Origin: Rhodobiaceae bacterium
GTDB taxonomy: Bacteria; Pseudomonadota; Alphaproteobacteria; Parvibaculales; Parvibaculaceae
NCBI GenBank assembly: GCA_003330885.1
Contig: CP030277.1
Location: 3,398,001 to 3,462,000 of the forward strand
Direction: 5' to 3'
Length of the DNA stretch: 64,000 nucleotides
Shown here: piece by piece, positions 3,617-18,717 of the stretch
Layout: the number at the start of each line of letters is the position of its first letter
How positions within the stretch are numbered: position 1 is the first letter of the stretch
Made by a program: the position numbers and the translations under genes
The notes under the pieces: model-generated
Told to the model about the DNA's origin: nothing
What the model saw: the letters and a program-made list of their open reading frames with translations, nothing else
Databases searched by the model: none

Positions 3617-6600
3617 CTAGTTGAGCAGCATCGAAAATCTCAGTGTGGCACCAAAAAGATCGGCGCTGGTTCCAATGCCATCATAATGACTAGCAACCGA
3701 GACGGTAAGGTCGCTGGTTGTCGCGAGGTCCAGGCTGAACCCGGCACGTCCGCGCAGGCCCTGAACTTCGCGTGCGAGAGAGCCGCTTGAATAGAGGCCG
3801 TCATTGCCGAACGTGTAAGCGCCATCGAAGTTGAACGAGGGCGTCAACCGATTACCACTCTCAAACACAATGTCGTATGAGAGTTTTGGTCCGGCTCGGA
3901 ATTCACCCTGGGAAACAGATTGTTCCGGGATAACCACGTTGAGGCTATCTGTGTAGCTTTCCTGTGTTTCACGGATATAGCTCAGGGATGCTGCTGGTTG
4001 GATGGTCCATCTATCAACCTGATAGCTGCCAATGAGCGCGCCGCTCACAAGCCAACGGTTTGTATCGAACCTGTCTGTGTAGGTACCCGTGGGGTTTATG
4101 TCATTGCTTGATTGTCCCCATGCTGCGCGCAGGTCAGCGAAGAAGCCTTCGTCCAATTTGAAAGTTGCATAGGGACCGGCCATCCAGCCGGTGCCTGTTA
4201 CCTCAGATCCATCGGTGTCGCCATCCTGCGAGAACCAGTCATATTGAACCAGGGCGCCAAGCAGAATGTCCGGCGTGATGAGTTGGTCTGCGCCAGCATA
4301 GACCACGCCAAATGTACCGTTTGCATTGGCATCATTGAAACCGGCAATCTGGCCTTCTATCCAAACACCGCGTTCATGGGCTTTGCGATCTTCGTCGCTC
4401 GCCTCTCCCGCGTTCAGGCCGGACGGTCCTGACCAGGCATAGTGAGAAGCAAATGACAGCGTGGTTGCTGTAAGGGAGGCCTGAACAGGAACGGGGATCG
4501 CGCCTGAAAGGCCGAAGCCGGAGGCAGATCCGGTCGTGGTTTGGGAGGCAACTGAGGAGAAGCGTCCGATACGGCGGCCTGAGCCTGGCTGGTTTGCCAG
4601 CAGGAAAGTATTCCGGGCGCCGAGGAAATCCGCGATGAGAGTTGATGTTGCCTCTCGGCTCTCAATGGCTGTGAAGGTACAGGTGACATCTTCGCCTGCC
4701 GCAAGTGTGATGGTTGCCGTGGCGGTCGCTATGTCGCCTGTCGAGTCCGTGTCATTGCAACTGATGTCTGTGATGCCATAGCCGAGATTTGTAAGATTGG
4801 CCGCTGTCACCGTGTGCGTCCCTGGCAACACATTCGGAATGAGCAAAGACGCGGTGCCGTTGGCCGTTCTCAGAGAGGTCGTGAGGGACGCGGTGGGCGA
4901 TGAGAACTCTGTTGTCACATCGGGTCCAGTGATGTTTTGGACCAATGTGATGTTGCCTCCGTCTACGCCTGTCCCGGACACGGCAAAGGTATAGGGTGCT
5001 TCATCAGCATCATCATTGGCGATGGAGACGGTGGCCGTGCGCGCGCCCAGACTTGATGGGTCAAAGGTGAGAGCAAATGTGGTTGACCCACTAGCCGCGA
5101 TACTTGTGGGGGGTTGTGTGGAGATGGTGAAATCACCTGAGCCCGTGAGGGAAACAGCGTTCGCCCCCAGTGTAAGCACGCCATTGCCGGTGTTTTGGAT
5201 GGTAAAGGACCGGGTGAGGGCGCCAGCGGTTTGATCGACCTTGCCAAAGTCTGTGTCATCGATGGTACTCGGGTTAGTGTCGCCCGACGAGATTTCGATG
5301 CCGTTTCCCTCAACAGCGATCTCCGGTGCTACGACTTCCCCTGTGCCCTGGATCGCGAAGGTGTAAGGCGCCTCGTCGGCATCATCATTATTGATGGTGA
5401 TCGTTGCTGTGCGCGCACCCACAGCGGAAGGGTCAAACCGGATGGTGAAGCTGGTTGATGCGGCGGCCGCGACAGTCGTTGCTGGTTGAGCGGTGACAAT
5501 GAAATCAGCCGCATTCGCCCCTGCCAAGGATACTGCATTTGCGCCCAGAGTGAGTGTAGCCGATCCAGTGTTTGCGATAGTGAAGGTGCGGTCCTGTGTG
5601 GCGCCTGCAACGTCGATACTGTCAAAGTTGGTGTGATCTGTGAGGGCGGGGGTCGTATCGCCTGAGACGATGTCCACACTGTTTCCCCGCACCTCGATCT
5701 CCGGTGTTGGCGTTGTCCCACCGGTACCCGTGCCTTGCACCGCAAAGACCATGGGGTTCATGCCGGGAATATTGGAATTCATGGTGACGGTTGCCGTTTG
5801 AAGTCCATTCACACTTGGATCAAAGGCGATCTGGAAAGAGGTTTGGGCAAAAGCAAGCCCGCCTGGGTTTGGCCCCTGTAGCGGCAATTGTTGCGTTACT
5901 GAAAAGGCGCTGCTGCCGGTAAGGGTCACCGCATTGGCCCCGAAAATGCTCGCACCAAAGCCGTTGACACTAAGAATATAGGTGCGTGTCGCGGTACCTG
6001 CCGCAACATCTTGATTGCCAAAGTCCGTGGCGTCTGCCGCGTCAGGGGTGAGGTCATTGTTCGTGATGGAGTTAAATCCATTGGCCGCTAACGTGCCGCC
6101 GAGAGGTCCGCGAGGATCTCCAGCAATGTTGAACGTGAAGGGCGCTTCATCTGCGTCATTGTTGGCGATGGAGACCGTTGCTGTCTGAACACCCACCACA
6201 AGGGGAGTAAAGGTCACGTCGAAGGTGGTGGAGTTGCCTGACGTAACACTGGTTGCCGGTTGGGCGGAAATTGCAAAGGCGCTGGCTCCTGTGACCGAGA
6301 CAGCATTCGCGCCCAATGTCAGATCACCTGTGCCCGTATTATTGATCGTGAAAGTGCGGGTAAAAGGTCCGAGGCCCACATCGCCTGAGAACAGTGTGTG
6401 ATCGGATGAATCTGGCGTTACGTCGCCTGTCGTTATGTTGGTGCCGTTGCCGGTGACGTTGATCTCTGGTGTGGACGTGACACCGCTGCCGCTGATGGCA
6501 AAAGTATAAGGCGCTTCGTCGGCATCATTGTTGGCGATGCTGACAGTGGCTTCCCGGTTACCGACGGCGCTGGGGTCGAAGGTGATTGTGAATGTGCGGG

Positions 6601-7420
6601 TGTCTGCCGGGCCGACAACAATTGGGGGTTGCGCCGTGACGCTGAAATCGCCGGCATGGGCGCCGGCCAGGGAGACGGCGGTGCTGCCAAGTTCTAGGTC
6701 TCCATCACCAGAGTTCTCGATCGTGAATGTGCGCGCGACCGTTCCGCCGGTTACCGCTGCGGCACCGAATGATGTGTGATCTGCCGCATCTGGCGTTACA
6801 TCGCCGCTGGCGATGGACTGTCCATTGCCCGTCACGTTGATCTCGGGGGTTAGGATTGTGAGCTGGGCGGATGTAATGGTGCCACCATTTGCAGCGACGG
6901 AGTAGTTCATGGTTAGGCGTCGATCAGTGAAAAATGGGGCATTTGTGCTTGTTGAATCCCATTCGAATATCCCAGTCAGGTTTGTGTTGAGCGGTGGATT
7001 GGCTGAGTTGCACCCTCCTGTGCCCTTATCACCGGCGCCGTCACCGAAATCGCACATCTGAAAGCGGCTAAAAAGACTGCTGCCGCCGGCGAGATACCTG
7101 GCGCCAATAACTCGGCCAAGTCCGAGGTCCGGCTGAATTCTTACCTCCACATCGCCTAAGCCGGGTCCTGCTATGGGGCCGTTGATGGCACATGTACCCG
7201 CAGAAACATCCACGAACACCCTTGCTAGGGCCGGATGGGTAACCGTGGCCGGCGCTCCGGTGCAATTGATGGTCATGGCCAGCGCCGGTGTGCTGGGCAG
7301 GGCAACGCCGGCAATGCTGAGCATCAGCAGCGAAAACGCTGGAAACAGGACCGCTGCTCCCCGCGCGACCGTCCGAACGCTCTTTGTCCATAACTCACAT
7401 GAATGATATGCATTCACCAT
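3617..7420 (-). CDS. Autotransporter-type surface protein with choice-of-anchor D repeats
   Basis: The product is about 1267 residues. The start chosen is the ATG at 7420, preceded by AGGGG at good spacing and followed by a long signal peptide ending near PSTPALA; a longer in-frame start at 7540 is less likely. After an N-terminal ~200-residue domain come five tandem ~120-residue repeats. They begin with PEINVTGNG..I.SGD.TPD-type motifs and end in FDPSAVG...ATVSIANNDADEAPYTF, typical of choice-of-anchor D/ASPM-SPD2-Hydin-like Ig folds. A domain ending in DVTCTFTAIES follows, then IADFLGARNTFLLANQPG and a ~270-residue C-terminal beta-barrel ending FGATLRFSMLLN, as in type V autotransporters. 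The expected role is an outer-membrane-anchored surface stalk, perhaps adhesive; the ligand is unknown. It is divergent from a LysR gene. Confidence 0.85.
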   Translation of the reverse strand: MVNAYHSCELWTKSVRTVARGAAVLFPAFSLLMLSIAGVALPSTPALAMTINCTGAPATVTHPALARVFVDVSAGTCAINGPIAGPGLGDVEVRIQPDLGLGRVIGARYLAGGSSLFSRFQMCDFGDGAGDKGTGGCNSANPPLNTNLTGIFEWDSTSTNAPFFTDRRLTMNYSVAANGGTITSAQLTILTPEINVTGNGQSIASGDVTPDAADHTSFGAAAVTGGTVARTFTIENSGDGDLELGSTAVSLAGAHAGDFSVTAQPPIVVGPADTRTFTITFDPSAVGNREATVSIANNDADEAPYTFAISGSGVTSTPEINVTGNGTNITTGDVTPDSSDHTLFSGDVGLGPFTRTFTINNTGTGDLTLGANAVSVTGASAFAISAQPATSVTSGNSTTFDVTFTPLVVGVQTATVSIANNDADEAPFTFNIAGDPRGPLGGTLAANGFNSITNNDLTPDAADATDFGNQDVAAGTATRTYILSVNGFGASIFGANAVTLTGSSAFSVTQQLPLQGPNPGGLAFAQTSFQIAFDPSVNGLQTATVTMNSNIPGMNPMVFAVQGTGTGGTTPTPEIEVRGNSVDIVSGDTTPALTDHTNFDSIDVAGATQDRTFTIANTGSATLTLGANAVSLAGANAADFIVTAQPATTVAAAASTSFTIRFDPSAVGARTATITINNDDADEAPYTFAIQGTGEVVAPEIAVEGNGIEISSGDTNPSTIDDTDFGKVDQTAGALTRSFTIQNTGNGVLTLGANAVSLTGSGDFTISTQPPTSIAASGSTTFALTFDPSSLGARTATVSIANDDADEAPYTFAVSGTGVDGGNITLVQNITGPDVTTEFSSPTASLTTSLRTANGTASLLIPNVLPGTHTVTAANLTNLGYGITDISCNDTDSTGDIATATATITLAAGEDVTCTFTAIESREATSTLIADFLGARNTFLLANQPGSGRRIGRFSSVASQTTTGSASGFGLSGAIPVPVQASLTATTLSFASHYAWSGPSGLNAGEASDEDRKAHERGVWIEGQIAGFNDANANGTFGVVYAGADQLITPDILLGALVQYDWFSQDGDTDGSEVTGTGWMAGPYATFKLDEGFFADLRAAWGQSSNDINPTGTYTDRFDTNRWLVSGALIGSYQVDRWTIQPAASLSYIRETQESYTDSLNVVIPEQSVSQGEFRAGPKLSYDIVFESGNRLTPSFNFDGAYTFGNDGLYSSGSLAREVQGLRGRAGFSLDLATTSDLTVSVASHYDGIGTSADLFGATLRFSMLLN
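7401..7417. promoter_or_regulatory. Inverted repeat TGAATG-N5-CATTCA at start of autotransporter gene
   Basis: The arms TGAATG and CATTCA lie just inside the autotransporter coding start. The 14-base core ATGATATGCATTCA is repeated exactly at 7530-7543, 126 bp away, next to the divergent LysR start. LysR-family regulators bind paired dyads near their own promoters, so this is a candidate operator. The assignment is inference. Confidence 0.4.
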
Positions 7421-7529
7421 CGTGATATACCCCTGCTCCGACCCGCCAATATGGTTAAGAAAACCGTTACTTTTCTTGATGTTTTGGAGTAGAGCGCGGT
7501 AGTTTCTGGGATGGAAATTCAAACTCGCG

Positions 7530-7554
7530 ATGATATGCATTCAGGATGTGAATG
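7530..7554. promoter_or_regulatory. Second copy of the motif plus CATTCA-N5-TGAATG dyad overlapping LysR ribosome-binding region
   Basis: ATGATATGCATTCA (7530-7543) is an exact copy of the motif at 7404-7417. Its CATTCA also forms a dyad with TGAATG at 7549-7554, covering the LysR ribosome-binding site just before the ATG at 7556. This placement fits autorepression plus control of the divergent autotransporter gene. Confidence 0.4.
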
Positions 7555-7555
7555 A

Positions 7556-8482
7556 ATGAAGCTTGATCTCAATCTTCTGCAGGTGTTTGACGCGGTGTAT
7601 ACGGCTGGCGGTATCACCGCTGCGGCTGAGAAGCTGCGGCTCACTCAACCTGCCATTAGCAATGCGCTGAAACGGTTGCGGGAGCACCTGGATGACCCGC
7701 TTTTTGAGCGGGTGGGCAAGCAGTTCGTGCCGACGCCGGAGGCCGACCGTCTGGCGCCTATCATTCACGAGGCGCTGAGGTCCATTGAGCAGGGTCTCTC
7801 CTTAACGGACGGTTTTGACCCGGGACAGAGCGACCGCTGTTTTTCCATGATCGTGCCGGACGCGATTGAGCCGATTGTCCTTAATCCGTTACTTCAGACA
7901 ACGCTGACCCAAAGCCCCGGCATCCGCTTTGAGGTGCAGTCGTTTTATGGTGTGGATTTCAATCAGGCGCTCCTCTCCAAACAGGTCGATCTTGGATTTA
8001 TGGCTCTGCCGAGCCATGAGGAGCAGTTGAATTCGACCTATCTCATTGACGACGAAACGTGCATTGCTGTCCGGGCAGATCACCCGGTGTATGGTGAGCG
8101 TGACGTCTTTACCCAGGAGGATATGGGGAAGGTTGGGCTTGTCTCACTCATTGCAGAAATGCGTGGGTACACACATTTGGAATATGAAATGCGTACCAGT
8201 AATGTGCAGCGGCGCATTATCTCGACGGTGACCCGCATGTGGTCTATTCCCTTTATTGTTGCGCGGACAGACCTTGCGGGCGCGTTGGCCCGGCGAATGG
8301 CAGAGACCGTTGCCGATGACCTCAATCTTAAACTTTTTAAACCCCCGATCGTCCGCCCAGCGCATCAGTGGTACATGATCTGGCACAAAGACAATGATGA
8401 TGATCCGGCGCATTCTTGGCTCCGAAATGAAGTGCTTGGTATCTTCGCGAAGCTTAAGGCGGCTGACCAGAAGGCCGGCTGA
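7556..8482 (+). CDS. LysR-family transcriptional regulator
   Basis: This 308-residue protein begins MKLDLNLLQVFDAVY. Its N-terminal winged helix-turn-helix (residues ~1-60; AAEKLRLTQPAISNALKRLREHLDDPLF) is classic LysR. The rest is a type-2 periplasmic-binding-like effector domain closest in feel to the NodD/PcpR group (DxIEPIVL, VDLGFMALPS). AGGA sits 9 bases before the ATG. The 135-bp divergent spacer to the autotransporter gene holds a duplicated dyad, so it probably controls itself and that gene. The inducer cannot be told from sequence. The guanidine operon downstream has its own riboswitch and need not depend on this regulator. Confidence 0.93.
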   Translation: MKLDLNLLQVFDAVYTAGGITAAAEKLRLTQPAISNALKRLREHLDDPLFERVGKQFVPTPEADRLAPIIHEALRSIEQGLSLTDGFDPGQSDRCFSMIVPDAIEPIVLNPLLQTTLTQSPGIRFEVQSFYGVDFNQALLSKQVDLGFMALPSHEEQLNSTYLIDDETCIAVRADHPVYGERDVFTQEDMGKVGLVSLIAEMRGYTHLEYEMRTSNVQRRIISTVTRMWSIPFIVARTDLAGALARRMAETVADDLNLKLFKPPIVRPAHQWYMIWHKDNDDDPAHSWLRNEVLGIFAKLKAADQKAG

Positions 8483-8820
8483 CGCATTTATTGAAACGAG
8501 TGCGCGGTGCTCAGCGATCAGGGCACATAATTTACACACTTCGTTGCACCGTCACCTCTCCCATCCGAAGTGAGACAGCAAATCAACCAGATAACCGACA
8601 CACTTGTTCAAGTGTTGGTTTTGCGTTTCGTGACTTTTTACCACCACACCCCCAACTCATTTCGACAATGCCTACTGGTGAGTTGGATCGCTCATATCGA
8701 AGGCAGCTTTTTGGCATTGTGACTAATCAGCAGGCATCGATCGAAAGGTGCCTGAGATAACCAACCAAAAACAGTACATGTGAACTGGCACGCTTCTTGA
8801 TTTGTAAGGGAGCATTAGCA
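8483..8820. other. Gene-free spacer between LysR and the riboswitch
   Basis: No convincing coding frame was found. It contains the dyad at 8600-8615 and must hold the promoter of the guanidine operon. I could not pick a confident -35/-10 pair. Confidence 0.5.
8593..8622 (+). terminator. Probable terminator after the LysR gene
   Basis: ACACTTG-TT-CAAGTGT (8600-8615) is a perfect dyad. Outer AACC/GGTT pairing is possible, and TTTT follows. It lies ~110 bp after the LysR stop and before the riboswitch. It could instead be an operator. Confidence 0.4.
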
Positions 8821-8939
8821 GCTAGGGTTCCGGCTGGTGTCCGATTTATCGGATCATCTGGTGACTGGTCCGAGAGCTGCGGCTCTGTCGGTTTACAGCG
8901 GCAGAGTACACGGCGGGATAAAAGCCCGGGAGGTCTAGC
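8821..8939 (+). ncRNA. Guanidine-I (ykkC subtype 1) riboswitch aptamer
   Basis: The conserved blocks of the family are present in order: CUAGGGUUCCGG (8822-8833), ACUGGUCCGAGAGC (8864-8877), and ACACGGCGGGAUAAAAGC followed by CCGGGAGG (8908-8933). P1 closes as GCUAG (8821-8825) with CUAGC (8935-8939). A small variable stem CCGAU/AUCGG lies at 8841-8852 and a CUCUG/CAGAG stem near 8883-8906. The family binds guanidinium and switches on guanidine export or degradation genes. Here it sits in the leader of a transporter-carboxylase operon, which itself supports guanidine as the substrate. Confidence 0.93.
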
Positions 8940-8975
8940 GCGTTTGGTAAAAACAGCGTCCGTACCGCCGTGACC

Positions 8976-9008
8976 ACCAGACTCCAAGACCGACAATGGA
9001 GTACTGGT
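8976..9008 (+). promoter_or_regulatory. Hairpin sequestering the ribosome-binding site (likely riboswitch expression platform)
   Basis: ACCAGACTCCA (8976-8986) pairs with TGGAGT-A-CTGGT (8997-9008): eleven pairs with one bulged A around a 10-base loop. The stem contains the UGGAG ribosome-binding site, and the AUG follows at 9010. No U-tract is seen, so translational control fits better than termination. Confidence 0.6.
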
Positions 9009-9009
9009 T

Positions 9010-10083
9010 ATGAAGTTATTTTCCAAAACACTGGTCGCGCTAGCGACGTCAATGAGTCTAATGATTGCTGGCGCCTCTTCTGTGAATGCAGAAGAGAAGA
9101 CAGAGTTCAAACTTGCTTGGTCAATTTATGTTGGCTGGATGCCGTGGGGCTGGGCTGCGGATCAAGGGATTGTCGATAAGTGGGCGGACAAGTACGACAT
9201 CGAAATCGAAGTCGTACAATTCAACGATTACATAGAGTCGATCAATCAATACACAGCTGGTGCCTTTGATGGCGTGACAGCAACTAATATGGACACGCTT
9301 GCCATTCCCTCAGTTGGTGGCGTGGATACGACGGCTCTGATCGTCGGTGACTTTTCAAACGGCAATGATGCCCTGATCCTCAAGGGCGCTGACTCGCTTG
9401 ATGCGGTTCTTGGACAGAATGTCAATCTTGTCGAGCTTTCTGTATCGCATTACCTGTTGGCGCGGGCTCTTGAGACGCTTGGGAAAGCTGAAAAAGATGT
9501 CACCGTGGTCAATACATCTGACGCAGATATGATCGCTGCCTATCAGACCGACGATGTGACAGCGGTTGTCACCTGGAACCCTTTGGTCGCGGAAATTCTC
9601 GAGACACCTGGCTCAAACAAGGTTTTCGATTCCTCTGACATTCCGGGCGAAATCATGGACCTGACTGTGGTCAATACGGAGACGCTTGCCGATAATCCTG
9701 CTTTCGGGAAAGCGCTCGCTGGTGCCTGGTATGAGACCATGTCGATCATGCTCTCCGACACGCCTGAAGGAGCAGCGGCTCGCGCGGCCATGGGCGAAGC
9801 TTCCGGAACTGACCTTGCTGGCTACGATATGCAACTTGCCTCTACACAGATGTTTGCCACTGCCTCTGACGCAGTCACATTCACGACGTCTGAGAGTGTG
9901 ACGTCGACCATGGAATCCGTTCGGACGTTCCTATTTGAGAGAGGTTTGCTTGGTGAAGGGGCATCCAGCCCGGACATTGTGGGAATTGCATTTCCTGACG
10001 GATCTGTTTTGGGTGATGAAGGGAACGTGAAGTTTCGCTTCAACGCCGACTATATGAGCATGGCCGCAGACGGATCTCTGTAA
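9010..10083 (+). CDS. ABC transporter periplasmic substrate-binding protein (guanidine/urea-carboxylase-associated)
   Basis: The product is 357 residues. A signal peptide (MKLFSKTLVALATSMSLMIAG...VNA) has likely cleavage near residue 27. The mature protein is an NMT1/TauA-like binding protein (FKLAWSIYVGWMPWGWAADQGIVDKWADKY), of the type labelled 'urea carboxylase-associated' in many proteobacteria. It is the first gene of the operon and directly follows the guanidine-I riboswitch and the ribosome-binding-site hairpin. Permease and ATPase genes follow. The expected role is periplasmic capture of guanidine or a guanidine-yielding compound; the exact ligand is inferred from context, not from binding residues. 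Confidence 0.9.
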   Translation: MKLFSKTLVALATSMSLMIAGASSVNAEEKTEFKLAWSIYVGWMPWGWAADQGIVDKWADKYDIEIEVVQFNDYIESINQYTAGAFDGVTATNMDTLAIPSVGGVDTTALIVGDFSNGNDALILKGADSLDAVLGQNVNLVELSVSHYLLARALETLGKAEKDVTVVNTSDADMIAAYQTDDVTAVVTWNPLVAEILETPGSNKVFDSSDIPGEIMDLTVVNTETLADNPAFGKALAGAWYETMSIMLSDTPEGAAARAAMGEASGTDLAGYDMQLASTQMFATASDAVTFTTSESVTSTMESVRTFLFERGLLGEGASSPDIVGIAFPDGSVLGDEGNVKFRFNADYMSMAADGSL

Positions 10084-10144
10084 TCCGTGACCGCTGATCT
10101 TTCCGCAACAGACCCACACAAAACAAAAAAAGTCAGGCACACGT

Positions 10145-10984
10145 ATGGCTCTGTCTCGTAGCGGACGGCTCATCAACAAACACCCTGGACCGGCGGCTGG
10201 GCGGCTGCTTGCAATGCTTCCTTTTGCGCTGCTGCTGCTCGCTTATGCTGTCGGTTCAGACATCAGACTTTCTGAAAACCCCAACGATAAGCTGCTTCCC
10301 AGCTTCACGTCGTTAGGTGACGCCGTTGAGCGCATGGCGTTTGAACCTGACAAGCGCACTGGGGATTATCTTTTGTGGGTAGATACAATCGCCAGCCTGT
10401 CGCGTTTGGGCGGCGGCGTGTTGCTTGCGACCCTTCTTGGGGCAGGGATTGGCATCACAGTAGGTCTCATACCTTATGCCAGATGGACCATGTCGGCCTT
10501 CATTGCCGTCTTCGCGATGATCCCGCCATTGGCGGTTCTGCCGATCCTCTTCATTACCTTTGGACTTGGTGAGACTTCCAAAATTGCGCTCATTGTTTTC
10601 GGGATTGCGCCCTTCATGATGCGTGACCTGGCGTTGCGCGTTTCCGAACTGCCGTCTGAGCAGATTGTGAAGGCGCAGACGCTTGGGGCCTCTACCTGGC
10701 ATATCGCCTGGCGCATTGTGCTGCCGCAGATGATGCCGCGGATTATTGATGCACTACGACTCTCGCTCGGATCAGCTTGGTTGTTTTTGATCGCCGCAGA
10801 AGCGATTGCCGCTCAAAGCGGTCTCGGCTATCGGATCTTTCTACTTCGCCGTTACCTGGCGATGGATGTGATCCTGCCTTACGTGTTCTGGATAACGCTC
10901 TTAGCAGTCATCTTCGACTTCCTTCTGAGACGCTATCAGATCTGGGCCTACCCCTGGTTCGTTGCAGAGAGGGCGCAGTCATGA
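10145..10984 (+). CDS. ABC transporter permease of the guanidine operon
   Basis: This 279-residue inner-membrane protein has about six helices. It carries the ATPase-docking EAA-type loop near residues 175-200 (KAQTLGASTWHIAWRIVLPQ), as in SsuC/TauC-type BPD permeases. It partners the preceding binding protein and the following ATPase, whose start overlaps this stop in an ATGA arrangement. The ribosome-binding site before the ATG is weak, suggesting translation coupled to the upstream gene. Confidence 0.92.
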   Translation: MALSRSGRLINKHPGPAAGRLLAMLPFALLLLAYAVGSDIRLSENPNDKLLPSFTSLGDAVERMAFEPDKRTGDYLLWVDTIASLSRLGGGVLLATLLGAGIGITVGLIPYARWTMSAFIAVFAMIPPLAVLPILFITFGLGETSKIALIVFGIAPFMMRDLALRVSELPSEQIVKAQTLGASTWHIAWRIVLPQMMPRIIDALRLSLGSAWLFLIAAEAIAAQSGLGYRIFLLRRYLAMDVILPYVFWITLLAVIFDFLLRRYQIWAYPWFVAERAQS

Positions 10985-11742
10985 CCGAAGTCAGCGTGCG
11001 TAACATCTGGATGGAGTATGGGGACCAGATTGTCCTGGAGCGTATCAATTTTGATGTGGCATCTCACTCCTTCGTTTCGCTTGTTGGACCGTCGGGGTGC
11101 GGGAAGTCGACATTTCTGCGCCTGCTTCTGAGCCAAGAGCAGGCGACCCGCGGGAAAATTCTTATTGATGGTGAAGAGCTGCCACCCAACCCAGAGCCTG
11201 ATCGGGGTGTTGTCTTTCAGAAATATTCCGTCTTTCCACATCTGACGGCTTTGGAGAATGTCATGCTCGGCCTTGAGTTGGATCGCGGCGGTTTTTCGGG
11301 GCGCCTGTATGGACGAGCCAGGCGCCGTGCGCGTGAAGAGGCCATGGAGTATCTTGGCGGGGTTGGGTTAGCCGCTGCGGCGTCCAAATATCCTTCTGCG
11401 CTGTCTGGTGGCATGCAGCAGCGCCTTGCTATCGCGCAAGCCTTGATCAAGAAGCCACGTATTCTTTTGCTTGATGAGCCCTTCGGCGCCCTCGACCCTG
11501 GTATCCGGTCAGAGGTTCATGACCTGATGTTGCGCCTGTGGTGGGAAACCAAGATGACGATCTTCATGGTGACCCATGACCTGCGCGAGGCCTTTTATCT
11601 CGGCACCCGCGTCATCGCTTTTGATCGTGTGCGCAAGAGGGAAGAAGAATTGGAGCGCTATGGCGCAACCATTGCGTTTGATACGCCGTCAGATCCTGCG
11701 CCGTTCGTGAAAGAACTGGCTGCAAAGGGTGTTGCGGCATGA
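10981..11742 (+). CDS. ABC transporter ATP-binding protein of the guanidine operon
   Basis: This 253-residue nucleotide-binding subunit starts at the ATG overlapping the permease stop (MTEVSVRNIWMEYG). Walker A is GPSGCGKST near residue 40, the signature is LSGGMQQRL near 140, and Walker B is ILLLDEPFGALD near 160, with the switch His in MVTHDL near 200. It resembles SsuB/TauB ATPases and should energise guanidine import with the two upstream genes. A longer upstream frame exists but runs inside the permease gene and has no ATPase homology. Confidence 0.93.
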   Translation: MTEVSVRNIWMEYGDQIVLERINFDVASHSFVSLVGPSGCGKSTFLRLLLSQEQATRGKILIDGEELPPNPEPDRGVVFQKYSVFPHLTALENVMLGLELDRGGFSGRLYGRARRRAREEAMEYLGGVGLAAAASKYPSALSGGMQQRLAIAQALIKKPRILLLDEPFGALDPGIRSEVHDLMLRLWWETKMTIFMVTHDLREAFYLGTRVIAFDRVRKREEELERYGATIAFDTPSDPAPFVKELAAKGVAA

Positions 11743-11897
11743 TGTTCATTTCTCGCCGGGACGGCCCGGCAGCTGGCCTTGAGCCAGCTGATGAGACATG
11801 GCCCAGGACGACCTGGAGCGTAGGGAGGCGGCGAAAAGACCGGCCTCTGCCAGATGGAGATGTCCATGAGACCCGAACCAGAGATTTTGTCGAGTGA
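11739..11897 (+). CDS. Candidate small protein, 52 codons, translationally coupled (unverified)
   Basis: This frame starts at an ATG overlapping the ATPase stop (ATGATG) and runs to TGA at 11895-11897, overlapping the start of the next gene. The product begins MMFISRRDGPAAGLEPADETWP and is Arg/Asp-rich, with no membrane segment or known motif. It fills the only sizeable gap in an otherwise tight operon, and its ATGA-type overlap copies the permease-ATPase junction. It may still be chance; the same gap also carries a hairpin (11770-11790). Confidence 0.3.
   Translation: MMFISRRDGPAAGLEPADETWPRTTWSVGRRRKDRPLPDGDVHETRTRDFVE
11770..11790 (+). repeat. Intergenic hairpin within the guanidine operon
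   Basis: CAGCTGG (11770-11776) and CCAGCTG (11784-11790) form a perfect 7-bp stem with a 7-base loop between the ATPase gene and the first DUF1989 gene. No U-tract follows. It could stabilise or process the mRNA between transporter and enzyme genes. Confidence 0.45.
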
Positions 11898-12603
11898 GGT
11901 AATTCCCGGAGGGGCGCATTGGTCTTTGACCATGAAAGCAGGACTCACACTTCGGCTGACGGATGTGGAGGGCGGTGCCAATGTGGGCATGCTCTTCTAT
12001 AACCCACTCAGTCTTTTGGAGCGGTATAACGCGCCAGACAGTTTGAAATGCCAGCACACCTTCAAGCTGACTAAGGGGAACTGTCTCTATTCGGACATGG
12101 CGCGCATCTTCTGCTCGGTCGTGGAAGACACGTTTGGTTGGCATGACACGGTCTGCGGCAATAGCACGCGTGAGATCATTGAAGACCGGTGGGGAGTAAC
12201 CAGCTACCAGGCGGCGCGCAACGAGCGGACGCAAAATGGGTTGGATAGTTTTCTCGTCGAGGCTGCGAAATATGGGCTCGGGAAAAAGGACCTTGCTGCG
12301 AACGTAAATTGGTTCAGCAAGGTTGTGCCGAACGCTGATGGAGACCTCGCCTTTGTGCCCGCTGCGGCCAGTCCCGGCGCTCACGTCGACCTTCGTTTCG
12401 AGATGGACACGCTGATTCTTTTTCATACCTGCCCGCATCCACTGGATCCGTCGCCAACCTACGCGCCTAAGCCCGTAAAGTTCGATGTCTTCGCTGCCGA
12501 GCCGGTAGCGGACGATGACTATTGCCGCACCTTCCGACGGGAAAACGGTCGAGGCTTTGAAAATACAGTGCGTTACCGCCGCATGTCTTTGGCAAGTGCG
12601 TGA
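11866..12603 (+). CDS. DUF1989 protein, urea-carboxylase-associated; probable carboxyguanidine deiminase subunit
   Basis: The product is 245 residues from the ATG at 11866, which has GGAG 6 bases upstream; in-frame ATGs at 11854 and 11860 are alternatives. It belongs to the DUF1989 family found as two adjacent genes next to urea/guanidine carboxylases. Published work on guanidine degradation assigns such pairs to carboxyguanidine deiminase (CgdAB), which converts carboxyguanidine to allophanate and ammonia. Visible family motifs are EDTFGWHDTVCG near residue 90 and FHTCPHPLDPSPTY near 185. It has fewer Cys in the second motif than its neighbour, so it may be the non-catalytic or differently metallated partner. 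I cannot assign A versus B. Confidence 0.85.
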   Translation: MRPEPEILSSEVIPGGAHWSLTMKAGLTLRLTDVEGGANVGMLFYNPLSLLERYNAPDSLKCQHTFKLTKGNCLYSDMARIFCSVVEDTFGWHDTVCGNSTREIIEDRWGVTSYQAARNERTQNGLDSFLVEAAKYGLGKKDLAANVNWFSKVVPNADGDLAFVPAAASPGAHVDLRFEMDTLILFHTCPHPLDPSPTYAPKPVKFDVFAAEPVADDDYCRTFRRENGRGFENTVRYRRMSLASA

Positions 12604-12619
12604 TTGGTAGGAGGGAAAA

Positions 12620-13270
12620 ATGATCAGAGAAAGTGAATTTGACGCGGCAAACGCAAAACTTCGCGAGATTGTCGATGCTGGTGACTACTGGATGCATACG
12701 GTTAAGCGCGGCGAGGTCTTTCGCATTCTTGACCTTGAGGGAAACCAGGCTGCCGACACGCTTTTCTACAACGCCCAAGACCCTGCTGAGCGTTACAGCG
12801 CTGTTGATACGATCCGTGAGCAGGGAAATGTTTATCTAACCGCCGGGACGAAGCTTCGCTCGACGGAAGGCTCTGTTATGCTCGAGATTGTCGCCGATAC
12901 GTGTGGGCGCCATGACACGTTGGGCGGTGCCTGCGCAACCGAATCCAACACTGTCCGCTATGCCCACGACACGAAATGTATGCATGCCTGTCGGGATAGC
13001 TGGCTTCTTGCGGTGGCGGAAAACGATCAATATGGCATGTCGAAGCGCGACATCACGCATAATATCAACTTCTTCATGAATGTTCCCGTGACGCCAGACG
13101 GAGGATTGACCTTCGCGGATGGGATTAGTGCGCCGGGCAAATATGTCGAGATGCGCGCTGAAATGGATGTTCTTGTCCTGATTTCTAATTGCCCGCAGCT
13201 GAACAATCCCTGCAACGCCTACAACCCAACTCCGATCGAGGTCCTGATCTGGGATGGCGTATCTGATTGA
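12620..13270 (+). CDS. DUF1989 protein, urea-carboxylase-associated; probable carboxyguanidine deiminase subunit
   Basis: This 216-residue protein starts 16 bases after the previous gene behind a strong GGAGGG. It is the second DUF1989 member and has the fuller set of candidate metal ligands: [14 protein letters not shown] near residues 92-105, KCMHAC near 117 and NCPQLNNPC near 192. With the preceding gene it should form the heteromeric deiminase that removes ammonia from carboxyguanidine made by the downstream carboxylase. Older automatic labels such as 'aminomethyltransferase' for this family are not supported by the context. Confidence 0.87.
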
Positions 13271-13301
13271 CGGTCTTACGAAGTAAAGAAGTACCCTGCT
13301 C

Positions 13302-16300
13302 ATGTTCAAAACAGTTCTTGTCGCCAACAGAGGCGAAATAGCGTGTCGGATCATCAGAACGCTCAAAGATTTGGGATTGAAGTCCGTTGCGATCTACTCA
13401 GAAGCTGATCAGCACTCGCTGCATGTGCGTGGTGCAGACGAGGCCTATTGCGTGGGTCCTGCCGCTGTGTCTGATAGCTACCTCAATATCGAAAAAATTC
13501 TTGCCGCATGTGAGGAAAGTGGCGCCGACGCTGTTCATCCAGGCTACGGGTTTTTGAGTGAAAGTGCTGAATTCGCCGAACGTCTTGACGAAAAAGGCGT
13601 TGCCTTTATCGGACCGACACCTCAGCAGCTCAGCGAGTTTGGCACGAAACATACCGCCCGTGCTCTTGCGGAAAAAGCGGGCGTGCCGCTCCTGCCAGGG
13701 ACGGGCCTGCTGTCTGATCTGTCCGCGGCGCTCTCCGCTGCGGCAGAGATAGGCTATCCTGTCATGTTGAAGAGTACGGCAGGCGGTGGCGGCATTGGAC
13801 TGCAGCTTTGTGCGTCTGACGAGGAACTGGAAAAGGCCTTCGACACTGTTCGGCGAATGGGCGAGAACAATTTTGCCAATGCGGGCGTGTTCCTTGAGAA
13901 GTTTGTGTCCAATGCCCGCCATATTGAGGTGCAGATATTCGGTGATGGCGCGGGCAATGTACTCACCCTTGGAGAGCGCGATTGTTCTCTTCAGCGTCGC
14001 AACCAGAAAGTCGTCGAAGAAACGCCTGCGCCGGGCCTGTCAGATGAACAGCGGCGGGCGCTTGCTGATGCGGCTCGACGCCTCGGAGAAGTGGTGGCTT
14101 ACGCATCTGCAGGCACCGTCGAATTCATCTATGACATTCAGGAGGGAAAATTCTACTTCCTTGAAGTGAACACAAGGCTGCAGGTGGAGCATGGTGTCAC
14201 TGAGGAGGCGTTTGGCGTTGACCTGGTCGAATGGATGGTCAGGCAGGCCGGCGGTACGATGCCGCCCCTACAGGACATTGATCTCGTGTCGAGTGGCGCG
14301 GCCATTGAGGTGCGGATCAATGCGGAAGATCCCGCGCGCAACTTCCAACCAAGTGCCGGGCGCCTGACGGAGGTGTCTTTTGACGAGCGCGCGCGGGTGG
14401 ATGGATGGATCGAAACCGGAACGATTATCACCTCCCACTATGACTCGCTGATTGCCAAGCTCATCGTGAAAGGACGCGATAGAAACGAAGCTTTGGAGCG
14501 GCTTCGCGACGCCCTCGCTGACACCTCCCTCTATGGCATTGAGACCAATCTGGATTACTTGGCGGCTATTGCTGACACTGAGATGTTCGCCGAAGGGCGC
14601 GTGAGCACCCAGGTGTTGGCCGATTTTGATTATTGTCCACCCCGGATTGAGGTCTTGACGCCCGGTGCGCAATCGAGTGTTCAGGACTTTCCCGGGCGTG
14701 TTGGCTATTGGGCGGTCGGTGTGCCACCCAGCGGACCCATGGATGATTTTTCTTTCCAACTGGCCAATCGCTTGGTGGGGAACCCTGGCGATGCGGCGGG
14801 GCTCGAATGCGCTGTGGTTGGGCCAAGCCTGCGCTTCTATTCACCTGCGGTGATTGCGCTCACCGGAGCGGAGATGAAGGCGACACTTGAAGGTCGTCTG
14901 GTGCCTTACTGGGAACCCATCGAAGTCGCAGCAGGAGAGACGCTGCATTTGGGGTCTGTGGAAGGGGCTGGCAACCGTACTTATCTTGCTGTCCGGCATG
15001 GGATTGACGTGCCGCTGCATCTTGGCAGTCGTTCCACTTTCATCTTGGGTGGATTTGGTGGCCATGCGACGGGTCCACTGAAGACTGGTGATGTTTTGCG
15101 CGTCAATCGAGCGGGCGCTATTGATGTGCCGCTTTCAATGGTGGAATTTTCGAACCGTCCAGCTCTCTGCAAAGAATGGGAGATCGGCGTTCTCTATGGT
15201 CCTCATGGCGCGCCGGATTTTTTCACCGAAGGTGATATCGAGACTCTGTTTCGGTCTTCCTACGAAGTGCATTTCAATAGCGCGCGCACCGGGGTGCGGT
15301 TGATCGGCCCGAAGCCGGAATGGGCGCGGGAGGATGGCGGCGAGGCGGGTCTGCATCCGTCCAACATTCACGATAACGCTTATGCGATCGGCACGATCGA
15401 TTTTACTGGTGATATGCCCATCATTCTCGGGCCCGATGGCCCGAGCCTTGGTGGGTTTGTGTGCCCGGCGACCATCGCAGATGCGGAACGCTGGAAGATG
15501 GGGCAGCTTCGGCCGGGCGACACGGTGCGGTTCGTCGCCCTTTCGGCTGAGGAGGCTGCGTCGCTGCAAGAGGATCGGAAACGGGTGTTTGAGGCGCCGC
15601 AGGTGGATCATTCGATTGCGGGGATGACGCCAAAAAGGAAGCCGGATGTGATGGAGCGCCCATCGGCCATTCTTGCGCGGGGGCAGACTAATGGCATCGA
15701 GATTGTTTATCGGCGGGCTGGGGACTCCTACCTGCTGGTGGAAATGGGCGCGCTGGTTCTGGATCTCAAACTGCGTCTGCAGGTGACCGCCTTGATGTCT
15801 TGGCTGGAGCAGGAAGCACCCGAGGGAATCATTGATCTCACCCCGGGTATTCGATCTTTGCAGGTGCATTACGACCCCGCATCGCTATCGAATAAGCGGT
15901 TGCTCGACATGTTGCGTCGCGCCGAAGAAGAAATGCAGCGCGCGGAAGATCTCACTGTGCCGAGCCGCGTGGTTCACTTGCCGCTTAGCTGGAGAGATGA
16001 ACAAGCGGAACTCGCAATGCAAAAATATCAGGAGCTTGTCCGCGAGGATGCCCCGTGGTGTCCCTCAAATGTTGAGTTTATTCGCCGCATCAACGGGCTG
16101 CCCGATGAACAGGCGGTCAAGGACATCATCTTTGATGCGGATTACCTTGTTCTGGGATTGGGTGATGTCTATCTGGGCGCGCCCGTCGCCACGCCCATCG
16201 ATCCGCGCCACCGTCTCGTCACCACGAAATACAATCCGGCACGCACATGGACGCCAGAGAACGCGGTGGGCATTGGTGGCGCCTATATGTGTATCTATGG

Positions 16301-16925
16301 GATGGAGGGTCCCGGCGGCTACCAACTATTTGGTCGAACACTTCAGGTCTGGAGTACTTGGCAACAAAGAGGGAGCTTTACTGCAGGTAAGCCCTGGCTT
16401 CTCCGTTTCTTTGACCGGATCAAGTTTTTCTCTGTCTCACCTGAGGAGCTGGCTGAAGCGCGGGATGCCTTCCCTCATGGTGCGTATCAGATTGAAGTGG
16501 AAGAAAGCAGTTTCAATCTGGCTGAGCATGACGCCATGCTCGCAAAAGAAACGCAATCCATTCTTCAATTCAAAGAGATGCAGCAGGAAGCGTTCGAAGC
16601 TGAAAGGCTGCGATGGCGCGAACAAGGGATCAATGCTGAGGTGATCGAAGAAGCCTTTGCCCTTGATGAGCCCGACGTCGATGTTCCAGAGGGTGGGTCA
16701 ATCGTGGAAGCCACTCTTCCAGGCAGCGTATGGAAAGTGTTGGTAGAGCCCGGTCAGTCTATTGAGGAGGGTGATGCAGTCGTGATCCTGGAAAGTATGA
16801 AAATGGAGCTGGAAGTTGCAGCACCACGAGGTGGTGTCGTGCATGAGGTGCTTTGTAAACCTGGCCAGACTGTTGACCCGGGACAGGCAGTTTTGGTGAT
16901 GGCTGCCGCTACGGAGGCTAACTGA
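13302..16925 (+). CDS. Biotin-dependent urea/guanidine carboxylase
   Basis: The product is 1207 residues, full length for the family. The biotin carboxylase domain (~1-450) carries the ATP-grasp loop STAGGGGIG near 160, ERDCSLQRRNQKVVEE and EVNTRLQVEH. The carboxyltransferase part follows as KipA-like (from VLTPGAQSSVQDFPGRVGYW near 450) and KipI-like (~770-1000) halves. The C-terminal biotin carrier domain has ESMKM with biotinyl Lys1167. It carboxylates urea or guanidine with ATP and bicarbonate in the cytoplasm. The upstream guanidine-I riboswitch and paired DUF1989 genes favour guanidine as true substrate. A substrate-pocket Asn/Asp difference is reported to separate the two activities, but I could not place that residue without an alignment. 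Confidence 0.95.
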   Translation: MFKTVLVANRGEIACRIIRTLKDLGLKSVAIYSEADQHSLHVRGADEAYCVGPAAVSDSYLNIEKILAACEESGADAVHPGYGFLSESAEFAERLDEKGVAFIGPTPQQLSEFGTKHTARALAEKAGVPLLPGTGLLSDLSAALSAAAEIGYPVMLKSTAGGGGIGLQLCASDEELEKAFDTVRRMGENNFANAGVFLEKFVSNARHIEVQIFGDGAGNVLTLGERDCSLQRRNQKVVEETPAPGLSDEQRRALADAARRLGEVVAYASAGTVEFIYDIQEGKFYFLEVNTRLQVEHGVTEEAFGVDLVEWMVRQAGGTMPPLQDIDLVSSGAAIEVRINAEDPARNFQPSAGRLTEVSFDERARVDGWIETGTIITSHYDSLIAKLIVKGRDRNEALERLRDALADTSLYGIETNLDYLAAIADTEMFAEGRVSTQVLADFDYCPPRIEVLTPGAQSSVQDFPGRVGYWAVGVPPSGPMDDFSFQLANRLVGNPGDAAGLECAVVGPSLRFYSPAVIALTGAEMKATLEGRLVPYWEPIEVAAGETLHLGSVEGAGNRTYLAVRHGIDVPLHLGSRSTFILGGFGGHATGPLKTGDVLRVNRAGAIDVPLSMVEFSNRPALCKEWEIGVLYGPHGAPDFFTEGDIETLFRSSYEVHFNSARTGVRLIGPKPEWAREDGGEAGLHPSNIHDNAYAIGTIDFTGDMPIILGPDGPSLGGFVCPATIADAERWKMGQLRPGDTVRFVALSAEEAASLQEDRKRVFEAPQVDHSIAGMTPKRKPDVMERPSAILARGQTNGIEIVYRRAGDSYLLVEMGALVLDLKLRLQVTALMSWLEQEAPEGIIDLTPGIRSLQVHYDPASLSNKRLLDMLRRAEEEMQRAEDLTVPSRVVHLPLSWRDEQAELAMQKYQELVREDAPWCPSNVEFIRRINGLPDEQAVKDIIFDADYLVLGLGDVYLGAPVATPIDPRHRLVTTKYNPARTWTPENAVGIGGAYMCIYGMEGPGGYQLFGRTLQVWSTWQQRGSFTAGKPWLLRFFDRIKFFSVSPEELAEARDAFPHGAYQIEVEESSFNLAEHDAMLAKETQSILQFKEMQQEAFEAERLRWREQGINAEVIEEAFALDEPDVDVPEGGSIVEATLPGSVWKVLVEPGQSIEEGDAVVILESMKMELEVAAPRGGVVHEVLCKPGQTVDPGQAVLVMAAATEAN

Positions 16926-16926
16926 A

Positions 16927-18717
16927 ATGGTTGAGCTCGATCTGCAGATACACGCTCTGCTCGATGCCTATGCTCAAGCTTCGATTGACCCTGAGACCGT
17001 AATTGAAATGGTCTATGACCGGATAGAGGCCTGCTCAGACAAAGCAATCTGGATTTCGCTGCTACCGCGTGCGGATGCATTGGCTGCTGCGCGTGCTCTT
17101 GCGGAGAAGGATGTCACGAATAGCGATTTGCCGCTTTATGGTGTTCCTTTCGCGGTGAAAGACAACATTGATTGCCGGGAGCTACCGACGACGGCGGGGT
17201 GTCCATCTTTTGCATATTCCCCGCAGGAGGATGCGACGGTTGTGGCGCGTCTGCGTGCAGCGGGAGCGATCTTGATTGGTAAGACAAATCTGGATCAGTT
17301 TGCCACGGGGCTTGTAGGAACGCGTTCGCCCTACGGCGCGCCGCACTCTGCCTTTCATGAAAACTATATTTCCGGCGGATCCAGCAGCGGCTCTGCTGTA
17401 GCGGTGGCGCGGGGACTTGTCTCTTTTGCGCTCGGCACGGATACAGCCGGGTCTGGCCGCGTGCCAGCGGCCTTCAACAATCTTGTTGGATATAAGCCCA
17501 CCTGTGGTCTTGGAAGCACCAAAGGCGTGGTGCCTGCCTGTCGGACGTTGGATTGCGTGAGCGTGTTTACGGCGTCATGCGGCGATGCCTCTCTCGTCAA
17601 GCACGTTATTGAAGGGTTTGATGAGGATGACCCATTTTCGCGTCATCTCATTGACCGTCCCTTAGCGGGTGCAGTCTTTCATTTCGGTGTACTTGATGAG
17701 CAGAGCCGGGACTTCAAGGGAGATGCGGGCGTAGAAGCACTCTACGACGCGGCCATCGAACACCTGCGCGACCTTGGTGGTGCGCCGGTTCCGATTGATT
17801 ACACGCCGTTTCGAAAGGCTGCCGAACTTCTCTATGTGGGCCCCTGGGTTGCTGAACGATATGCGGCCGTTGGCGTGCATATTGAGCAGGGGCATGAAGA
17901 TGTAGACCCGACAGTTGCGAAGATTGTGCTCGGCGGTAAGGCGGCATCTGCCGTTGATGCTTTCTCCGGTCAATATAGGCTTGCGGACTATAGGCGCGTG
18001 ATCGATGAGGTTTGGAACCGCATTGATCTTCTGCTGTTGCCGACTACACCGACGACTTACCGAACTGATGAGATCGCGAATGATCCTGTCACGCTAAACG
18101 CCAGTCTTGGGCTCTATACAAATTTCGTGAATTTGACAGATTGTGCGGCCGTTGCTGTCCCCGCTGGATTTTGTGACGGGCTGCCAGCAGGGGTCACGTT
18201 GATTGGGCCGGCCTTCACAGATAATGGGCTGCTCGCGCTGGGCGATCGGTTGCATAGGATGCTTGGGGATGGATTGAAAGCGGGGGCAACGGGGTATCTC
18301 CTGTCTGCCGCTCTTGCTGATCGGACGCAAGGCATCGAGCTCGCCGTTGTTGGCGCTCATTTGTCTGGCCAACCACTCAATTGGCAATTGGCTGACCGCG
18401 GTGCCAAACTGGTGGCGTCCACTCAGACAGCTGCGAGTTATGGCCTCTACGCCCTGGCTGACACAGAGCCACCCAAGCCTGGCCTTGTCCGCCAGTCAGA
18501 AGGTGGCGCAATGATTGAGGTCGAAGTCTGGGCACTCTCGGGTGAGGCATTTGGTCAATTTACCGCTGATGTGCCCGCACCTCTCGCGATAGGTAATGTA
18601 GAACTCCGAGACGGTCGATGGGTCAAAGGTTTTGTCTGCGAGCCATGGGGCCTAAAAGACGCCAGCGACATCACGGAGTTTAGCGGTTGGCGCGCTTTTC
18701 AAAGAAGCCTCGCATAG
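16927..18717 (+). CDS. atzF: Allophanate hydrolase
   Basis: This 596-residue protein starts one base after the carboxylase stop. The N-terminal amidase-signature domain carries Lys78 (VPFAVKDN), Ser152 in GGSSSGS and the nucleophile Ser176 in DTAGSGR, the Ser-cisSer-Lys triad of the family. A ~120-residue C-terminal domain after ~465 matches AtzF/DUR1-type allophanate hydrolases. It hydrolyses allophanate to ammonia and CO2 (via an N-carboxy intermediate), the last step of the pathway begun by the carboxylase and deiminase. No clear plus-strand terminator follows beyond the bidirectional-looking hairpin near 19011. Confidence 0.95.
   Translation: MVELDLQIHALLDAYAQASIDPETVIEMVYDRIEACSDKAIWISLLPRADALAAARALAEKDVTNSDLPLYGVPFAVKDNIDCRELPTTAGCPSFAYSPQEDATVVARLRAAGAILIGKTNLDQFATGLVGTRSPYGAPHSAFHENYISGGSSSGSAVAVARGLVSFALGTDTAGSGRVPAAFNNLVGYKPTCGLGSTKGVVPACRTLDCVSVFTASCGDASLVKHVIEGFDEDDPFSRHLIDRPLAGAVFHFGVLDEQSRDFKGDAGVEALYDAAIEHLRDLGGAPVPIDYTPFRKAAELLYVGPWVAERYAAVGVHIEQGHEDVDPTVAKIVLGGKAASAVDAFSGQYRLADYRRVIDEVWNRIDLLLLPTTPTTYRTDEIANDPVTLNASLGLYTNFVNLTDCAAVAVPAGFCDGLPAGVTLIGPAFTDNGLLALGDRLHRMLGDGLKAGATGYLLSAALADRTQGIELAVVGAHLSGQPLNWQLADRGAKLVASTQTAASYGLYALADTEPPKPGLVRQSEGGAMIEVEVWALSGEAFGQFTADVPAPLAIGNVELRDGRWVKGFVCEPWGLKDASDITEFSGWRAFQRSLA

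Follow-up and report, generated by a model that had tools for sequence, protein, structure and literature searches.

A probable guanidine-assimilation operon behind a Guanidine-I riboswitch in a Rhodobiaceae bacterium, and a NikR-like protein that may replace the riboswitch in Caulobacterales and Sphingomonadales

The degradation of guanidine through a guanidine carboxylase has already been published, and in the accessible text of the papers concerned (PMC12186494, PMC11410670, PMC12508155) the pathway operons of Pseudomonas syringae, Raoultella terrigena, Klebsiella michiganensis, and Vreelandella boliviensis encode an ATP-binding cassette (ABC) importer, deiminase subunits, the carboxylase, and an allophanate hydrolase behind a leading guanidine riboswitch; the guanidine sensors named there are RNAs. 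Here we analyzed a stretch of 64,000 nucleotides from a Rhodobiaceae bacterium (hereafter designated the window; contig CP030277.1, positions 3,398,001 to 3,462,000 of the forward strand), which holds an operon with the same components headed by a Guanidine-I riboswitch aptamer. The pathway of this operon repeats the published one and is not new. Checking the operon against its relatives exposed, outside the window, what may be a swap of the regulator, in which a NikR-like protein stands where the riboswitch would be expected.

Compared with the described systems, the window operon shows small differences. Guanidine-I is found at its head only, and Rfam detected no internal Guanidine-II, unlike in the Raoultella, Klebsiella, and Vreelandella operons, which have one (accessible text of PMC12186494 and PMC12508155); indeed, no Rfam family except Guanidine-I exceeded its threshold in the 64-kb window. 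Furthermore, mgdH/mgdL is absent between the carboxylase and hydrolase genes, unlike in the known pathway operons, and the genome differs from the known pathway genomes in that no urease alpha reaches the cut-off there (top score, 23.7 bits versus 680).

Seven plus-strand genes follow the aptamer and end at position 18717, in the order of binding protein, permease, ATPase, two DUF1989 proteins, carboxylase, and allophanate hydrolase, with neighboring genes overlapping by 4 bases at the closest and lying 111 bases apart at the widest. All seven matched the families expected of such an operon: five proteins passed the curated NCBIfam cut-offs (TIGR03427, TIGR03425, TIGR03424, TIGR02712, and TIGR02713), and the remaining two are an ABC permease and an ABC ATPase by Pfam (Table 1). 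The two DUF1989 subunits adjoin an Asp-type carboxylase, the arrangement expected for the carboxyguanidine deiminase CgdA/CgdB. A first-pass annotation made from the sequence alone had read the leader as a guanidine-I riboswitch with conserved ykkC blocks, and a covariance-model search bore this out, RF00442 being matched well over its gathering score with the conserved cores intact; the description of the seven genes on one strand also stood, and the start given as 8821 lies 10 bases inside the aptamer, which begins at 8811. This is the only Guanidine-I copy in the 3.86-Mb genome. Of 61 genomes comprising this one and its relatives, 24 carry Guanidine-I above the cut-off, as do 25 of the 40 genomes searched within the order, its own included. 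A chance origin of the operon and its aptamer is excluded because of the family and covariance scores and the recurrence across genomes.

The assignment of the carboxylase to guanidine or urea was addressed through its pocket. According to the accessible text of PMC11410670, guanidine carboxylases have Asp at the position of Kluyveromyces lactis residue 1584 and, distinguishing them from urea carboxylase, Asp at that of residue 1330. Alignment to the K. lactis chain, in which residue 1330 is Asn, placed D700 of the window enzyme at 1330 and D955 at 1584; thus, both positions carry Asp, and the Asn of urea amidolyase/urea carboxylase at 1330 is lacking. Among 398 Pseudomonadota genomes searched with TIGR02712, 53 copies in 46 genomes exceeded the cut-off (a single copy in the genome of the window), with Asp at the position of residue 700 in 42 and Asn in 11 (one copy, L087, having been re-read). 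A DUF1989 pair lay within 8 kb of all 42 Asp-type carboxylases and of none of the 11 Asn-type ones. Guanidine-I was present within 15 kb of 35 Asp-type enzymes out of the 42 and of no Asn-type enzyme, a comparison tempered by the counts being lower bounds owing to stricter filters. Moreover, 18 further positions separated the two groups (at least 40 of 41 Asp copies, L087 being left out, and at least 10 of 11 Asn copies). The pocket residues D700 and D955, the leader, and the confinement of the DUF1989 pair to Asp-type enzymes uphold the first-pass annotation in preferring guanidine to urea and in calling the label ‘urea carboxylase’ misleading, and the guanidine reading of the sequence is well supported. 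Of the refuting outcomes named in that annotation, the two open to computation, a failed covariance match and a urea-type Asn in the pocket, did not occur.

Guanidinium would be taken up by the ABC importer and converted, with ATP and biotin, to carboxyguanidine by the carboxylase; the DUF1989 pair would then form allophanate, and the hydrolase would release ammonia and CO2, with a net yield of three ammonia per guanidine. Binding of guanidinium to the leader aptamer would turn the operon ON. We thus regard the window, with high confidence, as encoding a guanidine-inducible guanidine-assimilation operon. That it degrades urea through urea carboxylase and allophanate hydrolase is what the family names in NCBIfam imply (‘urea carboxylase’, ‘urea amidolyase associated protein’, and ‘putative urea ABC transporter’), and with no urease alpha over the cut-off the carboxylase could be the only urea route of the genome. 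This alternative was rejected on the pocket residues and the co-occurrence, and it is hardly credible in view of the Asp aligned with K. lactis residue 1330, the Guanidine-I aptamer in the leader, and the finding that neither a DUF1989 pair nor a riboswitch accompanies any of the 11 Asn-type enzymes in the sample. A second alternative, in which the operon mainly detoxifies guanidine made in the cell instead of supplying nitrogen, draws on the lack of any match in this genome to PF00893, the family holding the SMR-type guanidine exporters, so that degradation could serve to lower guanidine; it is nevertheless very improbable, as the first three genes encode an ABC transporter together with its binding protein, a layout typical of importers that would be needless for detoxification alone. 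The specificity of the importer for guanidine is suggested by its position, and the catalytic activities of the enzymes, the binding of guanidinium by the aptamer, the direction in which the switch works and its timing, and growth on guanidine are predictions from the sequence.

How the aptamer may act on the operon was examined in 25 leaders from the order, that of the window included. Three pairings are proposed for the window leader (Table 1). Without ligand, the aptamer strand CACGGCGG would pair with its perfect complement CCGCCGTG (helix A) and bar helix C, so that the anti-Shine-Dalgarno strand ACTCCA would cover the Shine-Dalgarno (SD) region (helix D), giving the OFF state. With ligand bound, the aptamer would keep its own strand, helix C would form around the freed CCGCCGTG, which in the window sits in the helix C loop, and the anti-SD would be drawn into helix C, leaving the SD open (ON). 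The helix A score of the window was reached by 4 of 300 shuffles, and helix A was long in 18 of the 25 leaders (reached by at most 15 of 300 shuffles). In all 22 leaders with a readable SD, that of the window among them, a strand 5′ of the SD covers it (helix D) and a strand further 5′ pairs with or into the anti-SD (helix C); both scores were reached by at most one of 300 shuffles in 20 of these leaders, by 2 in the window, and by 10 in L010. The partners of helix D covary, being ACTCCA:TGGAGT in the genus of the window, CTCCT:AGGAG in the group g4, and TCCTCCG:CGGAGGA in g5, and the pair following CTCC is A-T in g1 and g2, T-A in g4, and G-C or G-U in g5. Likewise, helix C ends in GGT:ACC in g1 and in GGC:GCC in g2, g4, and g5 (end pair T-A versus C-G). 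In energy folding of the window leader, the free fold covers the SD, and forcing helix C raised the chance of the SD being unpaired from about 0 to 0.86–0.90 at three of four bases, at a cost of 2.3 kcal/mol above the free fold. The leader is likely a translational ON switch, the output in this lineage being the translation start of the first gene. The aptamer as a whole resembles that of the Guanidine-I class (RF00442), and the proposed expression platform differs from it in being a three-helix SD switch. We know of no prior description of this exact layout, no search having been aimed at one.

Several observations weigh against this switch. Helix A was no better than shuffles in 7 of the 25 leaders (L010, L017, L020, L024, L027, L028, and L032), and the SD was unreadable in three (L011, L012, and L027). 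Most leaders come from one genus, so that the exchanged pairs represent few independent events. The free minimum-energy fold of the window lacks helix A, which when forced lies 1.7 kcal/mol higher, and when the aptamer P3 and helix C were both imposed, SD opening reached no more than about 0.2, so that the energy model does not yield the full ON state. Control of transcription by the leader, through a terminator or Rho, instead of translation would agree with the presumed action of a Gd-I switch elsewhere on transcription (accessible text of PMC12508155) and with the statement that the Guanidine-I class permits transcription only with guanidine (accessible text of PMC11410670). A terminator-type platform was rejected here, no terminator-like site being found from the aptamer to the first gene, and in the region as a whole such sites numbered 13 against a shuffle mean of 10.6 (standard deviation, 3.5). 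With the SD-covering helix D recurring in all 22 readable leaders, transcriptional control is the less likely possibility, though one to be taken seriously. The proposed translational switch is open to test in this lineage.

Seven of the 42 Asp-type operons lack Guanidine-I. One of them (G090) has Guanidine-II instead, at L091:9030-9079; its genome also contains a NikR_C gene with R, H, H, and T at the ligand positions, about 7 kb from the Guanidine-II and on the other strand. For the six operons without Guanidine-I or -II, a new RNA was considered and rejected: no Rfam family matched at its gathering score, with one chance-level match at E up to 1. Inspection of the genes of these six riboswitch-less operons led us to notice a gene of the NikR family. 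In five (G188, G216, G372, G410, and G414), a gene for a NikR_C-domain protein lies a few hundred bases 5′ of the first DUF1989 gene. NikR_C matches in eight other genomes do not occupy such a place; the closest is that of G090, on the strand opposite its carboxylase and about 8 kb 5′ of it, and the genome of the window has no NikR_C match. In the sixth, Asp-type G169 (L088), neither a guanidine riboswitch nor, genome-wide, a NikR_C match was found, and no binding-protein gene was seen among the upstream open reading frames (ORFs); part of its stretch reads N.

A similarity scan of genome contigs with the five NikR-like proteins gave 203 relatives, the best 80 of which were analyzed (loci L095–L174) and belong, by record titles, to Caulobacterales (Caulobacteraceae and Hyphomonadaceae being named) and Sphingomonadales; in most of these loci the match lies near locus position 10001. 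A similarity search in plasmids contributed nothing further to the case. A DUF1989 gene lies within 4.3 kb of the NikR-like gene in 79 of the 80 loci, the contig of the last ending 549 bases on, and the carboxylase residue is Asp in all 74 readable copies; of the six loci left, L106 could not be resolved and five stop short of the residue at a contig end. Built from 23 leaders, a covariance model that recovered all 16 control Guanidine-I aptamers of other families (51.8–82.3 bits) found no Guanidine-I in the 80 loci, some of which are short, apart from one chance match (13.9 bits, E 0.99).

Like the NikR nickel regulators, the group shares the RHH and NikR_C domains (PF01402 and PF08753, both exceeding their cut-offs in each of two proteins examined) and, by prediction, the fold. 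The one protein compared with NCBIfam fell below its NikR cut-offs. NikR chains ranked first in a structure comparison of the predicted model, which is of modest quality (mean predicted local distance difference test, 71.1; predicted template modeling score, 0.52); it supports a NikR fold and says nothing on a guanidinium pocket. The group differs from the nickel regulators in its guanidine-gene neighborhood and in the loss of three of the four nickel ligands in all 80 proteins. The ligand positions were mapped through Pyrococcus NikR, with the known ligand roles and Escherichia coli numbering. The first His is lost, the third His is replaced by Phe, and the Cys is replaced by Ser or Ala, each in 80 of 80, and 70 of the proteins retain the second His, so that none has the His, His, His, Cys site of NikR. 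The stretch replacing this site, QHVFLEDDQSLEVLLVQG, is highly conserved. Among eight NikR_C proteins located elsewhere in the sample genomes, five keep all four ligands and three have lost some or all; ligand loss is not specific to the guanidine-linked proteins. The NikR-like protein likely does not answer to nickel.

An exact dyad, TATTAC-N14-GTAATA, recurs 5′ of the NikR-like guanidine operons. At this spacing, 144 exact dyads were found in the 80 loci (1.48 Mb), which are related, so that the sites are not independent events, and no exact dyad was found there at spacings of 8–13 or 15–20. The exact dyad is present in 79 loci, with a single mismatch in the 80th, and in 77 of the 80 an exact site lies between 420 bases 5′ of the estimated start of the binding-protein or NikR-like gene and 40 bases into that gene; the dyad keeps to the head of the operon across three gene orders, and 16 of the 144 sites have no assignment to a tested gene. 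Over whole genomes, the five NikR-like genomes hold seven sites, whose coordinates all fall at the guanidine cluster. Among the remaining 41 genomes, 8 contain a total of 10 exact sites, fewer than a reversed control pattern (21 sites in 13), one of the 10 (G319) lying about 5 kb before the riboswitch of that genome; presence of the dyad alone is not specific to NikR-like genomes. With the half-sites written as GTATTA-N16-TAATAC, the dyad shares its spacing with the E. coli NikR operator, GTATGA-N16-TCATAC. Fourteen dyad sites, in 14 loci, precede a gene near the guanidine operon for a TonB-dependent receptor, a candidate for the outer-membrane part of the regulon. Matches resembling TonB receptors occur in 43 of the 80 loci, for example at L132:4010-6448 on the minus strand. 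At L155:5975-7063, also on the minus strand, a gene for a metallo-beta-lactamase-fold protein (362 residues; one scanned) faces away from the dyad that belongs to the binding-protein gene, and similar-looking genes are found in several Sphingomonadales loci.

From its place, operator, and regulon, the NikR-like protein very likely controls the guanidine operon. A fuller proposal is that, in Caulobacterales and Sphingomonadales, a nickel-blind NikR paralogue replaced the guanidine riboswitch, binds the TATTAC-N14-GTAATA dyads heading the importer and enzyme operons, and controls these operons according to the level of guanidinium or of an intermediate of the pathway, which it would sense through the remade site QHVFLEDDQSLEVLLVQG; we lean toward this proposal as a whole, with appreciable doubt, and the response to guanidinium or an intermediate would in particular be a deduction from sequence. 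Control of guanidine operons by the NikR family was not found stated in the accessible text of the open-access literature searched, and the accessible part of PMC2667541, on NikR and urea carboxylase, makes no such claim; papers on guanidine-responsive systems dealt, judging by titles and the openings of abstracts, with riboswitches, enzymes, transporters, or unrelated subjects.

Table 1 Features of the guanidine operon and its leader (window positions).
Feature	Position	Strand	Basis
Guanidine-I (ykkC subtype 1) riboswitch aptamer	8811..8934	+	RF00442, full model 1-107, 80.9 bits versus gathering score of 63 bits, E 7.8e-13
Aptamer strand CACGGCGG, 5′ side of proposed helix A (anti-aptamer, OFF)	8909..8916	+	8-bp perfect complement to 8965-8972
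GTTTGGT, 5′ side of proposed helix C (anti-anti-SD, ON)	8942..8948	+	Recurrence and shuffle control
CCGCCGTG, 3′ side of proposed helix A	8965..8972	+	Complement to CACGGCGG
ACCAGAC, 3′ side of proposed helix C, two-base overlap with anti-SD	8976..8982	+	Recurrence and shuffle control
ACTCCA, anti-SD, 5′ side of proposed helix D (OFF)	8981..8986	+	Covaries with SD in relatives
TGGAGT, SD region of first gene, 3′ side of helix D	8997..9002	+	Leader comparison
ABC importer substrate-binding protein	9010..10083	+	TIGR03427, 535.2 bits versus cut-off of 333.9
ABC importer permease	10145..10984	+	PF00528
ABC importer ATPase	10981..11742	+	PF00005; start in ORF list 10777, likely start ATG at 10981
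DUF1989 protein, likely carboxyguanidine deiminase subunit (presumably A)	11854..12603	+	TIGR03425, 321.5 bits versus 206; PF09347
DUF1989 protein, likely carboxyguanidine deiminase subunit (presumably B)	12620..13270	+	TIGR03424, 350.3 bits versus 285; PF09347
Guanidine carboxylase with biotin carboxylase, carboxyltransferase (CT), and biotin carboxyl carrier protein (BCCP) domains; D700/D955	13302..16925	+	TIGR02712, 1846.7 bits versus 1303.85; Pfam domains; pocket residues
Allophanate hydrolase, amidase and C-terminal domain	16927..18717	+	TIGR02713, 787.4 bits versus 511; PF01425, PF21986

Directly 5′ of the operon and on the same strand lies a gene for a LysR-family regulator (7556-8482). 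Divergent from it, on the minus strand (3617-7540), is a gene for a 1307-residue protein with repeat units like ‘EINVTGNG’ and a C-terminus that looks autotransporter-like by eye.

The window adds one more genome in which neither urease nor SMR matches exceed the cut-offs and in which the label ‘urea’ should be replaced by guanidine. The NikR-like findings likewise warn against reading such operons as urea- or nickel-controlled, as was suggested for CCNA_01902-06 in the accessible text of PMC8552747; this locus would be of the type found in the NikR-like group. If the proposed replacement is true, a protein sensor of guanidine would stand in for a riboswitch, and with the operator, the regulon, and the lost metal site all readable from sequence, both this protein replacement of a riboswitch and the way in which the protein would perceive guanidinium are directly testable in Caulobacter.

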